Positions 3,487 to 60,418 of a stretch of 64,000 bases of DNA are shown here, piece after piece. Below the pieces are notes generated by a model, which saw nothing but the letters and a program-made list of their open reading frames with translations, did no database searches and had not been told where the DNA came from. The stretch lies in NCBI GenBank assembly GCA_018401275.1, contig JAGYKW010000001.1, positions 62,001-126,000 on the forward strand. The letters are read 5' to 3'. Numbering within the stretch: the first letter of the stretch is position 1; the number at the start of each line of letters is the position of its first letter. This DNA comes from Nitriliruptoraceae bacterium (GTDB lineage: Bacteria; Actinomycetota; Nitriliruptoria; Nitriliruptorales; Nitriliruptoraceae). The translations under genes were made by a program, and so were the position numbers.

Positions 3487-4548
3487 GTGGCACGAGTGCT
3501 CGTCCTGTACGGCGGTCGCTCCGCCGAGCACCAGGTGTCCTGCCTGTCCGCACGATCCGTCCTTGCGGCCCTTTCTGCGACGACCCACGAGGTCGTGCCG
3601 GTCGGCATCACCCGCGACGGACGGTGGACGCTCACCGACGGTGCGATCGCGCCCGTGACCGACGGGCGGCTGCCTGAGGTCGATGGCACCGGACCGACCA
3701 TCGGCCTCGTGACCGGAGTGCACGGCCCCGAGCTGGTCGTGTTCGCCGCAGACGGCACGGTCAGCGGGCGGATGGACGTCGACGTCGCGTTCCCTGTCCT
3801 GCACGGTCCGGGCGGTGAGGACGGGAGCGTGCAGGGCATGCTCGCGACCGTCGGGCTGCCCTACGTCGGCGCCGACGTCGCCGCGTCCGCACTCGGCGTC
3901 GACAAGGCCGCGATGAAGGGACGCTTCCGGCTCAACGGGCTGCCACAGGTCGCCCACCTCGCGTTCGAGCACGAGCGCTGGGAGCGCGAGGCGGACCTCG
4001 TGCGCCAGGAGCTCGCGCGCATCCCGCTCCCGTGGTTCGTCAAGCCCGCGCGGCAGGGCTCATCGATCGGCATCACGCGCGTCGATGACCTCGCCAGCCT
4101 CGACGCGGCCATCGCGGAGGCCGCCCGGCACGATGACCGCATCGTCATCGAGGAGGGCCTGACCTCGCTGCGCGAGCTCGAGGTCGGCATCCTCGAGGAG
4201 GACGGCCGCGTCGAGGTCTCCTGCGTCGGTGAGATCGTGCCGGTCAACCGCTTCTACGACTTCGACGCGAAGTACGTGACGCCCTCACGCCTCGAGGTCC
4301 CCGCCGACATCGACCCGGCCACCGCCGAGGCCATCGAGGAGGTCGCGCGGCGCGCGTTCACCGCGATCGGCGGACGCGGCATGGCCCGCATCGACCTGTT
4401 CCTCGCTGCCGACGGACGCCTGCTGCTCAACGAGATCAACACGATCCCCGGCTTCACCGAGGCATCGATGTTCCCGCGCGTGTGGGCCGCGTCCGGCGTG
4501 GACTTCACCGCGCTGGTCGAGCGGCTGCTCGTGGCCGCCCGCGCCTGA
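3487..4548 (+). CDS. ddl: D-alanine--D-alanine ligase
   Basis: ATP-grasp ligase that joins two D-alanines for peptidoglycan precursor synthesis. At 353 residues it is normal length. Family marks are the N-terminal LYGGRSAEHQVS, the VFPVLHGPGGEDG-type substrate loop, WFVKPARQGSSIG of the ATP-grasp domain, and the C-terminal LLNEINTIPGFTEASMFPRVW that binds metal and substrate. GTG 3487 follows AGGAGG by a normal distance. The gene ends at an unusual tandem repeat that links it to recG (see 4542-4598). Confidence 0.97.
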   Translation: MARVLVLYGGRSAEHQVSCLSARSVLAALSATTHEVVPVGITRDGRWTLTDGAIAPVTDGRLPEVDGTGPTIGLVTGVHGPELVVFAADGTVSGRMDVDVAFPVLHGPGGEDGSVQGMLATVGLPYVGADVAASALGVDKAAMKGRFRLNGLPQVAHLAFEHERWEREADLVRQELARIPLPWFVKPARQGSSIGITRVDDLASLDAAIAEAARHDDRIVIEEGLTSLRELEVGILEEDGRVEVSCVGEIVPVNRFYDFDAKYVTPSRLEVPADIDPATAEAIEEVARRAFTAIGGRGMARIDLFLAADGRLLLNEINTIPGFTEASMFPRVWAASGVDFTALVERLLVAARA

Positions 4549-4598
4549 TGCCCCGCCGCGTGCTCGCCTGATGCCCCGCCGCGTGCTCGCCTGATGCT
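4542..4598 (+). repeat. 23-bp tandem duplication of the ddl-recG stop/start junction (two full copies plus partial third)
   Basis: The unit CGCCTGATGCCCCGCCGCGTGCT occupies 4542-4564 and 4565-4587; a third partial copy (4588-4598) supplies the recG start. Each copy contains TGATG, a one-base stop/start overlap. Read in frame, ATG 4548 and ATG 4571 each open a seven-residue minigene (MPRRVLA then stop). The next ATG overlaps each stop, so the chain is ddl stop, minigene, minigene, recG start at 4594. Confidence 0.9.
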
Positions 4599-21303: not shown

Positions 21304-21864
21304 ATGACCAGCGCCGATCGGGACCGGGCCGATCGCGTCGAGGTCGGACGCGTCATCAAGCCGCACGGCCTGCGCGGCGAGGTCGTGATCCTCGTCGCCT
21401 CCGACGTCGACGACCGCTTCGCCGTGGGCGTCGAGGTCTGGGTCGACGGTGTCGCCTCGACCATCGCGACCTCACGCCCCCATCAGGGACGGCCGCTCGT
21501 GCGCTTCGCCCACGTCCCTGACCGCACCGCCGCCGAGCTGCTGCGCGGTGCGCTCATCGAGGCCGCTCCGGTCGATGCCGTCGAGCTCGACACCTACCTC
21601 GCGAGCGAGCTTGTCGGTGTGCGGGTGCTCGATGTCGACGGTGTGCTGCTCGGTGCGGTCACGGGACTCGTGGAGATGCCGGCGGTCGCCGGCTACGACC
21701 TGCTCGAGGTCGCTTCACCCGACGGGCGCAGCTGGCTGCTGCCCGCCGCCGACGAGCTCGTCGAGGCGGTCGAGGACGCGGACGGACTCCATCTCGTCGT
21801 GACCGAGCTGCCCGACGGGCTGCTCGACATCTCCAGCGCACCTGCGGTCGAGCATGAGCGATGA
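21304..21864 (+). CDS. rimM: Ribosome maturation factor RimM
   Basis: Assembly factor for the 30S head that interacts with S19. The 186-residue protein has the N-terminal RimM barrel (VEVGRVIKPHGLRGEVVILVASD) and the C-terminal PRC-barrel (LVGVRVLDVDGVLLGAVTGL, then LLPAADELV). It starts 10 bp after khpA. The stop codon lies in a 14-bp triplicated junction leading to trmD. Confidence 0.95.
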   Translation: MTSADRDRADRVEVGRVIKPHGLRGEVVILVASDVDDRFAVGVEVWVDGVASTIATSRPHQGRPLVRFAHVPDRTAAELLRGALIEAAPVDAVELDTYLASELVGVRVLDVDGVLLGAVTGLVEMPAVAGYDLLEVASPDGRSWLLPAADELVEAVEDADGLHLVVTELPDGLLDISSAPAVEHER

Positions 21865-21897
21865 GGCGCGAGCGATGAGGTGTGAGCGATGAGGATC
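21856..21897 (+). repeat. 14-bp tandem triplication of the rimM-trmD stop/start junction
   Basis: Three copies of GAGCGATGAGG plus three variable bases occupy 21856-21869, 21870-21883 and 21884-21897. Each contains ATGA. ATG 21861 overlaps the rimM stop and opens MRRER-stop; ATG 21875 overlaps that stop and opens MRCER-stop; ATG 21889 overlaps the second stop and is the trmD start. This is the same ladder architecture as at ddl-recG, with unrelated sequence. Confidence 0.9.
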
Positions 21898-22626
21898 GAC
21901 CTGCTCACCATCTTCCCCGGCTTCTTCGACGGGCCGCTCGACACGTCGCTCGTCGCGACCGCGCGTGAGCAGGGCCACCTCGACGTCCGGGTCCACGACC
22001 TGCGCGACTGGTCGACGGATCGGCACCGCAGCGTCGATGACGCGCCCTACGGGGGCGGTGCAGGGATGGTCATGCGTCCCGACGTGCTGGTCGCGGCCGC
22101 CGAGTCGATCTGGAACGACCTCGCTCCGGGCGAGCCCGTCCAGCCGCCGCTGCACGTCGCAGGCGGTGAGCGTCCGCGCACCGTGCTGCTCACCCCGCGC
22201 GGTCGACCGCTCACGCAGGCGCTGGTGCGCGAGCTCGCGGGGGAGGATCGGCTCGTGCTGCTCTGCGGTCGCTACGAGGGCATCGACGAGCGCGTCCACG
22301 AGCTGGTCGCGACCGACGAGGTCTCGCTCGGGGACTACGTGCTGATGGGTGGCGAGGTCGCAGCCGCAGCGATCGTCGAGGCGGTGGTGCGCCTGCTGCC
22401 CGGCGTGCTCGGCAACGCCGAGTCGGCCGTCCAGGAGTCGTTCGAGCACGGTCTGCTGGAGCACCCTCACTACACCCGGCCGGCCGAGTTCCGCGGGCAC
22501 GAGGTCCCGGAGGTCCTGAGGTCGGGCGATCATGGTGCGATCGCCGCCTGGCGCCACGAGCGGGCGCTCGAGCGCACGCGCGCGGTCCGTCCGGACCTGC
22601 TGGAGCCGACTGACGGGCCGGGTTGA
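21889..22626 (+). CDS. trmD: tRNA (guanine37-N1)-methyltransferase TrmD
   Basis: Makes m1G37 next to the anticodon, preventing +1 frameshifting. The 245-residue SPOUT enzyme shows [13 protein letters not shown], the [13 protein letters not shown] loop, [12 protein letters not shown], and the knot segment [19 protein letters not shown] that binds SAM. The C-terminal [19 protein letters not shown] is also diagnostic. The start is the third ATG of a repeated ladder. The likely rplS promoter overlaps its stop. Confidence 0.97.
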
Positions 22627-58595: not shown

Positions 58596-60308
58596 ATGCC
58601 GAAGACCTCCACCACGAAGGGCCGCAGCCGTAGCGACCGGGCCGACGGGAACCCGCCGGTCGAGGTCACCTTCCTCGGTGGGCTGGGCAGCATCGGCCGC
58701 AACATGGCCACCATCGAGGTCGACGGGCGGGTCGCGGTCGTCGACTGCGGCGTGCTGTTCCCCGACGCCGAGCATCTCGGGGTCGACCTGATCCTTCCCG
58801 ACTGGCGCTGGCTCGTCGCGCGCGGTGACGACATCGAGGCGGTCTTCCTCACCCACGGCCACCTCGACCACATCGGCGCGCTGCCCTACCTGCTGCGCGA
58901 CCTCGGCCGGTCACTGCCCGTCTACGGCACGAAGCTCACGCTCGCGTTCGTCGCATCGATCCTGCGGGAGTGGCCCGACCTCGTCCCGCCCGACCTGCGC
59001 GAGATCGTTCCCGGCACGACCATCGAGCACGCGCCGTTCACCGTCGACGTCGTCCAGGTCTCGCACTCCATCCCGGACGGGTGCGCGTTCGCCTTCATGA
59101 CCCCGCACGGGACGATCGTCCACACCGGGGACATCAAGCTCGATCAGACGCCGATCGATGGACTGCCCACCGACCTGGCCCACTTCGCGCGCATCGGCGA
59201 CCGTGGTGTCGACCTGCTGCTGGCCGACTCGACGAACGCCGACGTCCCCGGGCACATCCCCAGCGAGCGCACGGTCGGAGCGGCGATCCGTGAAGCGCTC
59301 TCGCACGCCGAGGGGCTCGTCGTCGTCGCGTCGTTCGCCTCGCACGTGCACCGCATCCAGCAGATCCTCAACGAGGCGGCGGCGTTCGGACGTCGTCCGG
59401 TGTTCGTGGGCCGCTCGATGATCAACAACATGGCGATCGCCCAGGAGCTCGGATACCTCCAGTTCGACCCGAAGCTCGAGGTCGCGATGGAGGACGTCGA
59501 GCGGCACGACCGGAGCGGGCTCATCGTCGTCTCCACCGGTTCGCAGGGCGAGCCGTTCAGCGCGCTCAGCCTGATGTCCAGCGGCGATCACCGCCATCTC
59601 GCGCTCGGACCGGGCGACCTCGTGATCCTCGCGTCGAGCCTGATCCCGGGCAACGAGCAGGCCGTCTACCGCTCGATCAACAACCTCGCCCGACGTGGGG
59701 TCGACGTCGTGCACGGGGGGATCGCTGCGGTCCACGTGTCGGGTCACGCGGCCGCCGACGACCTCGCGATCCTGCACAACGTGCTCGAGCCGGAGTACTT
59801 CATCCCCGTCCACGGCGAGCACCGGCACATGATGGCGCACCGTCGTGTCGCCGTCGCCACGGGCTGCCCGCCCGAGCAGGTGCTCGTGTGCGAGGACGGC
59901 GACCGCGTCATGCTCGAGGACGGTGTCGTGCGCCGAGGTGATCCGGTTCCGACGAGTCACGTCTACATCGACGGACTCCTGCCCGACGTCGGTCCGGCGA
60001 TGCTGCGCGACCGACGTCGCCTCGGTGAGGACGGCATCTGCATCGCCGTCGTCACCATCGACACGCGCAAGGGCGAGCGGGCGTCCGACAGCGTCATCAC
60101 GCAGCGCGGGGTCGTGCTCGGGGACCATGTCGAGGACCTGCTCTCCACGGCACGCAGCACCGTCGATGCGTCGATCGACCGGCTGACACGCGCCCGTCGG
60201 GAGGACACCGCAGCGGTCCAGCGCGAGGTCGTCCAGACGTTGGGTCGCTTCTGGAAGCAGGAGACGGGCCGCCGTCCGGTCATCCTGCCCGTCATCCAGG
60301 AACTCTGA
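58596..60308 (+). CDS. rnj: Ribonuclease J
   Basis: Metallo-beta-lactamase-fold endo- and 5'-exoribonuclease for mRNA decay and rRNA maturation. The 570-residue protein shows LGGLGSIGRNM, the metal motif HGHLDH (87-92) in THGHLDHIGALPYL, HTGDIKLD, and the beta-CASP residues around HVSGHAAADDLAILHN and PVHGEHRHM. GAGGAG precedes ATG 58596. Its stop is in a 14-bp triplication (60303-60344). Confidence 0.96.
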   Translation: MPKTSTTKGRSRSDRADGNPPVEVTFLGGLGSIGRNMATIEVDGRVAVVDCGVLFPDAEHLGVDLILPDWRWLVARGDDIEAVFLTHGHLDHIGALPYLLRDLGRSLPVYGTKLTLAFVASILREWPDLVPPDLREIVPGTTIEHAPFTVDVVQVSHSIPDGCAFAFMTPHGTIVHTGDIKLDQTPIDGLPTDLAHFARIGDRGVDLLLADSTNADVPGHIPSERTVGAAIREALSHAEGLVVVASFASHVHRIQQILNEAAAFGRRPVFVGRSMINNMAIAQELGYLQFDPKLEVAMEDVERHDRSGLIVVSTGSQGEPFSALSLMSSGDHRHLALGPGDLVILASSLIPGNEQAVYRSINNLARRGVDVVHGGIAAVHVSGHAAADDLAILHNVLEPEYFIPVHGEHRHMMAHRRVAVATGCPPEQVLVCEDGDRVMLEDGVVRRGDPVPTSHVYIDGLLPDVGPAMLRDRRRLGEDGICIAVVTIDTRKGERASDSVITQRGVVLGDHVEDLLSTARSTVDASIDRLTRARREDTAAVQREVVQTLGRFWKQETGRRPVILPVIQEL

Positions 60309-60344
60309 GGACGGAGCTCTGAGGACGGAGCTCTGAGGACGGAG
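60303..60344 (+). repeat. 14-bp tandem triplication containing the rnj stop codon
   Basis: CTCTGAGGACGGAG occurs at 60303-60316, 60317-60330 and 60331-60344. Each copy has TGA, and because 14 is not a multiple of three the stops (60306, 60320, 60334) cover all three frames. The first is the rnj stop. Confidence 0.9.
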
Positions 60345-60418
60345 CGGTGAGGGCGGTGTCCGTCCGGCCGGGCGTCGGACGGACGACATGGCTGGGGTTC
60401 CATGGATGTCGTTCCGGC

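Follow-up and report, generated by a model that had tools for sequence, protein, structure and literature searches.

In the 64,000-nucleotide stretch of a Nitriliruptoraceae genome considered here (the window, part of the 714-kb contig 1 of genome G000, an assembly of 1.73 Mb in 39 contigs), the neighbouring genes rimM and trmD are joined by a ladder of three tandem 14-bp units, in each of which a stop codon overlaps a start codon. The array is of recent origin, ladders of this kind recur at other junctions and, in another genus, at the same one, and among the arrays of this bacterial class that bridge two genes there is a bias in frame. It is proposed that generic short tandem duplications are probably retained at coupled junctions only if termination-reinitiation survives.

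The array occupies positions 21856-21897 of the window and consists of the units GAGCGATGAGGCGC, GAGCGATGAGGTGT and GAGCGATGAGGATC, which Tandem Repeats Finder (TRF) reports as period 14, 2.8 copies and 92%. The usual 4-base overlap between rimM and trmD is turned into rimM-MRRER-stop-MRCER-stop-trmD, with a 4-nt stop/start overlap of the type known from coupled gene pairs at each step (ATGA at 21861, 21875 and 21889); the rimM stop codon TGA at 21862-21864 overlaps the first of these ATG codons. This three-unit arrangement can be read directly in the DNA, as a sequence-only reading of the window had described it, and the accompanying frame arithmetic, by which the period must be 3n-1, holds. 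Two features went unremarked in that reading, namely a GAGG located 8 nt ahead of the next ATG in the first two units and a single 12-codon open reading frame (ORF) at 21854-21892, which alone reaches from the end of rimM to trmD in one step. All three units share the 11-bp core GAGCGATGAGG, containing the stop/start and GAGG, and are completed by CGC, TGT and ATC, respectively. The differences are thus confined to the last three bases, and three contiguous variable columns would be expected by chance with a probability of about 0.03; the invariant core hints, weakly, at constraint. A structured RNA or attenuator between rimM and trmD was rejected, given the lack of an Rfam match at the junction and its ordinary folding energy (z = -0.82). 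A codon signal linked to TrmD was also rejected, as MRRER and MRCER contain no proline or leucine codons and have no obvious link to the main tRNA substrates of TrmD.

The origin of the array was addressed by comparison with related genomes. The native trmD start, carried by the third unit, reads ATGAGGATCGACCTG and is the same in G002, with GTGAGGATCGAC in G001 and G003; over the corresponding stretch, the trmD start in the congeners is likewise ATGAGGATCGAC or GTGAGGATCGA. Because all three of these congeners have a plain 4-base rimM/trmD overlap with no array, the simplest reading of the array is that the trmD start region was recently duplicated on the spot, twice in tandem. Elsewhere in the family, too, such direct overlap is frequent.

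A second ladder has been found at the same junction in a different genus of the family. Following a search of 66 genomes of the class Nitriliruptoria for repeated TGAGG shortly ahead of the trmD start, the pattern was identified only in G000 and G007; a 396-genome sample of the phylum returned five further TGAGG-pattern hits, with no repeat in the matched DNA. The G007 junction carries at least three 29-bp units (29 = 2 mod 3), in the order rimM ending in DGATS-stop, GTGA, KVWTDGRSS-stop, GTGA, RVWTDGRSS-stop, GTGA and, beyond a break, GTGA and trmD. Here rimM ends one contig (C149) and trmD opens another (C210), with the same 29-bp unit at both contig ends; the copy number is a minimum as the contigs break inside the array, and short-read assemblies may for this reason hide longer ladders elsewhere. 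The G007 ladder is independent in origin of that in G000.

The relationship between period and frame was then assessed across the class. The 66 Nitriliruptoria genomes were searched for three RTGA motifs at a fixed spacing of 14, 13, 11 or 10, the frames flanking a subset of the array loci were classed, and arrays with spacers at least 60% identical were counted. An array was considered as bridging when one coding ORF had its end at an early RTGA and a second had its start at a later one. In a sample of one-per-genome loci, supplemented at period 14 with 20 loci selected by their identity, bridging arrays accounted for 7/29 at period 14, 4/9 at period 11, 1/16 at period 13 and 0/15 at period 10, corresponding after pooling to 11/38 at 2 mod 3 versus 1/31 at 1 mod 3 (Fisher p = 0.008). 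The bias was retained without the index case (p = 0.009) and without both G000 loci (p = 0.016). Arrays covering a stop codon only showed no frame bias (12/38 at 2 mod 3 versus 8/31 at 1 mod 3, p = 0.79). In this modest sample, the pattern is what would be seen if frame were of consequence solely for arrays that bridge two genes. An excess of frame-preserving periods, as anticipated by the sequence-only reading, is therefore present in a qualified form, in the bias of bridging arrays towards 2 mod 3, whereas the raw excess of period 14 is unspecific. Raw RTGA arrays of periods 14 and 13 number 148 versus 64 in Nitriliruptoria and 340 versus 158 in a second actinobacterial genus (genomes of 5.5-11.3 Mb), and their excess was rejected as proof of ladders on the grounds that a reversed control pattern behaved similarly (20 versus 10 and 83 versus 51) and that the period-14 count also collects 7-bp repeats. 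The notion of frame preservation itself takes two forms, the 3n-1 ladders already recognised and arrays of period 0 mod 3, about four of which are found at G000 junctions, where the downstream protein is merely lengthened.

Taken in steps, the proposed mechanism would start from an ancestral rimM/trmD junction with a plain 4-base overlap (RTGA), at which ribosomes that have completed rimM begin anew on trmD. Two tandem copies of the 14-bp trmD start region may then have been produced by replication slippage or another generic process of that sort. Because 14 = 2 mod 3, each copied ATG would open a five-codon ORF ending exactly on the next ATGA, and a terminating ribosome would meet a new start every 14 nt, reaching trmD via three successive termination-reinitiation events if the mini-ORFs are translated. 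A gap of +14 nt lowers coupling by 40-80% in E. coli and Haloferax, hardly any coupling is left at 22-38 nt, and the final 15 nt of the upstream gene are enough for it to occur (PMC10666635). On the distances from these species, duplications of 1 mod 3 would leave an untranslated gap of at least 20 nt and break coupling, and selection would remove them; those of 0 mod 3 would pass the same filter by adding residues to the downstream protein. A bare 28-nt insertion would be predicted to uncouple rimM and trmD, and the two mini-ORFs would hold every step at -4. Evolutionary constraint on overlap and frame is indicated by the -4 overlap in the three congeners together with the frame bias, from a modest sample.

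Several points weigh against this mechanism. High-identity bridging arrays total only 12, and with all identities admitted, in the one-per-genome sample without G000, the counts are 8/58 versus 3/59 (p = 0.13). One bridging array has a period of 13 (L300). The nine or so G000 arrays lying over both a stop and a start comprise five at 2 mod 3, four at 0 mod 3 and none at 1 mod 3, a lack that is not significant in G000 alone. An obvious Shine-Dalgarno motif in each unit is lacking from about half of the bridging arrays; such motifs aid coupling and are not always required (PMC6728339). The coupling distances, coming from E. coli and Haloferax, may not be those of the host. Selection for coupling, one of two causes offered in the sequence-only reading, is hence moderately supported by the bridging arrays, on a small sample and less so under looser criteria.

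The other proposed cause, a duplication process favouring junctions, could not be established: about nine G000 arrays lie over a stop/start, against roughly 3-6 expected, depending on the footprint assumed. Noncoding DNA of G000 contains 140 tandem arrays of period 11-30, where first-order Markov simulation of an equal length of noncoding DNA yields 0-2 (about 1.5 Mb scanned, outside contigs C15-C22 and C24-C33 and C1:487501-490000, which read as runs of N), and arrays are also present at convergent gene ends, which cannot be coupled. Because of this abundance in noncoding DNA and at convergent ends, the duplication process looks general and not bound to coupled junctions. Same-strand gaps of 5-80 nt crossed by at least two chained mini-ORFs number 5, compared with a mean of 0.6 and a maximum of 3 over 500 shuffles. 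The 140 arrays, these two-step chains, the frame bias of bridging arrays in the class and the independent ladder in a second genus bear out the earlier argument that coincidence is not enough. Besides rimM-trmD, five further ladder junctions were identified in G000 (Table 1), whose units differ from junction to junction; they include the 23-bp Ddl-RecG ladder of the same window, also recognised in the sequence-only reading and not present at the corresponding junction of G003. A -4 overlap is found in 248/968 same-strand neighbours of G000.

Four other explanations were considered. It is unlikely that trmD starts from its own ribosome-binding site, with the array being without effect and its period a one-in-three accident. 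Noncoding DNA and convergent stops do indeed carry many tandem arrays, the ATG of the third unit is preceded at 8 nt by GAGG, sufficient for initiation on its own, and the frame counts of G000 alone do not reach significance; yet neutrality is opposed by the class-wide frame bias of bridging arrays and its lack in stop-only arrays, by the second, independent rimM-trmD ladder in G007, also 2 mod 3, and by the excess of two-step mini-ORF chains over shuffles. Positive selection of the extra steps as a means of tuning the TrmD:RimM ratio, either by ribosome loss at each step or by the extra GAGG recruiting ribosomes de novo, appears very doubtful. The identity of the 11-bp core in the three units, with variation only in the last three bases, and the gain of ladders twice at rimM-trmD would fit with it, but ladders occur at many unrelated junctions with no common function visible, are limited to single species or genera and lack Shine-Dalgarno motifs in half of the cases. 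An assembly artefact or strain mixture in a metagenome bin, which the 39-contig assembly and the broken contigs of G007 might bring to mind, can scarcely account for an array of 42 bp, shorter than a read, with units of differing sequence and a location inside a 714-kb contig. Insertion at rimM-trmD of a dispersed, mobile repeat resembling the mycobacterial interspersed repetitive units (MIRUs) is extremely improbable, as the source of the units is the trmD start of this locus, each ladder has its own unit, and the junction DNA, used as a query against its own genome, matched only itself and, weakly, two sites inside trmD.

MIRUs, which likewise occur as tandem arrays between the genes of operons, remain the closest precedent for ladders that arise by generic duplication and persist where coupling survives. 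They consist of short actinobacterial repeat units with a small ORF whose coupling to the following gene is at -4 nt, and their insertion does little harm to expression (PMC12548453). The mini-ORFs of the rimM-trmD array, with ATGA at both ends, are placed in the same way. However, MIRUs are dispersed, apparently mobile and made of longer units, whereas ladder units are 11-29 bp, local and junction-specific: no copy of the rimM-trmD unit was found at another junction of the genome, the units of other ladders differ, and those of the array match the native trmD start kept in the congeners, as opposed to a foreign insert. Each ladder step is also an overlap of the kind seen in gene pairs joined by ATGA or TGATG and translated by termination-reinitiation (PMC6728339, PMC10666635); known cases have one overlap, whereas ladders stack several, with ORFs of four to nine codons in between. 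Ribosomes are supplied to a start codon by a short translated ORF that is coupled to it (PMC12548453; PMC5995908), and ladders share this arrangement with bicistronic designs and short upstream ORFs. In bicistronic designs, leader cistrons precede a gene, whereas ladder cistrons are placed in series between operon genes, by duplication. In the literature covered, mostly outside subscription journals, no paper was found on serial mini-cistron ladders formed by local duplication.

At stake are the capacity of ribosomes to terminate and restart repeatedly over a span of tens of nucleotides and the minimal ORF length that this requires. Ladders represent natural experiments, as closely related genomes carry the same operon joint with zero, two or three additional steps. 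The frame bias points to serial reinitiation being efficient enough to be tolerated by selection, and to uncoupling being costly. Where translation may in fact run on without interruption, gene callers will show an intergenic gap of 24 nt. A broader generalisation, that local tandem duplication turns the operon junctions of high-GC actinobacteria into chains of minimal cistrons (down to four or five codons) translated by serial termination-reinitiation, with copy number serving as an evolvable, slippage-prone rheostat of the expression ratio between neighbouring genes and no dispersed family involved, would at present seem quite unlikely.

Table 1. Coordinates of the rimM-trmD array, its parts and other ladders. 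Unprefixed positions refer to the window; mini-ORF peptides end at a stop codon.
Feature	Position	Strand	Basis or description
rimM, upstream gene	21304..21864	+	Pfam RimM and PRC_RimM; translation
14-bp unit 1 (GAGCGATGAGGCGC)	21856..21869	+	Sequence, TRF
14-bp unit 2 (GAGCGATGAGGTGT)	21870..21883	+	Sequence, TRF
14-bp unit 3 (GAGCGATGAGGATC), carries native trmD start	21884..21897	+	Sequence, TRF, congeners
Mini-ORF 1, MRRER	21861..21878	+	Read from sequence; scan for chains of two mini-ORFs
Mini-ORF 2, MRCER	21875..21892	+	Read from sequence; mini-ORF chain scan
Alternative single 12-codon mini-ORF from ATG 21854, in frame with mini-ORF 2	21854..21892	+	Sequence
GAGG, possible Shine-Dalgarno for ATG 21875, 8 nt spacing	21863..21866	+	Inspection; putative function
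GAGG, possible Shine-Dalgarno for trmD ATG 21889, 8 nt spacing	21877..21880	+	Inspection; putative function
trmD, downstream gene	21889..22626	+	Pfam tRNA_m1G_MT; translation
Ddl-RecG ladder, other ladder of the window	4542..4597	+	23-bp unit, TGATG x3, two mini-ORFs MPRRVLA
PurB-GltX ladder, G000			14 bp, one mini-ORF
Ladder between Thioredox_DsbH-domain gene and alpha/beta hydrolase, G000			14 bp
Ladder between two small genes, G000	C34:115737		11 bp
Diverged ladder of gene pair, G000	C1:440139 (C1:440139-440170)		14 bp
G007 ladder pieces	L246 3' end = C149:5050-5128; L017 1-60 = C210

Other arrays were noted in the course of these searches. The noncoding DNA of G000 is rich in tandem duplications of 11-16 bp, many of which touch stop codons. 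Within the window, a 14-bp array with about four copies of GGAGCTCTGAGGAC extends at 60299-60356 from the stop codon of the gene at 58596-60308 into the intergenic region; it was rejected as a ladder, its CTCTGA units having TGA and no start codon and the next called gene lying about 220 bp downstream. The 11-bp candidate at G002_L137 12604 was also discarded, its first GTGA being in frame with the upstream gene. In other Nitriliruptoraceae, 14-bp arrays of six to nine units with RTGA in each are located in G030 (C11:6698-6799 and C79:3754-3841), G026 (C127:8912-9013) and G009 (C289:8483-8556). The diverged 14-bp ladders L280 (G002), L282 (G027) and G000 C1:440139-440170 keep an exact RTGA spacing with spacers 65-73% identical and could represent conserved steps, though the search pattern itself demanded RTGA. 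Finally, 12 G000 gene pairs are spaced at exactly +10 nt (that is, 14 minus 4), with 3 and 9 pairs at the neighbouring sizes, and in four of these twelve cases a single mini-ORF of five codons, bounded on either side by RTGA, spans the gap.
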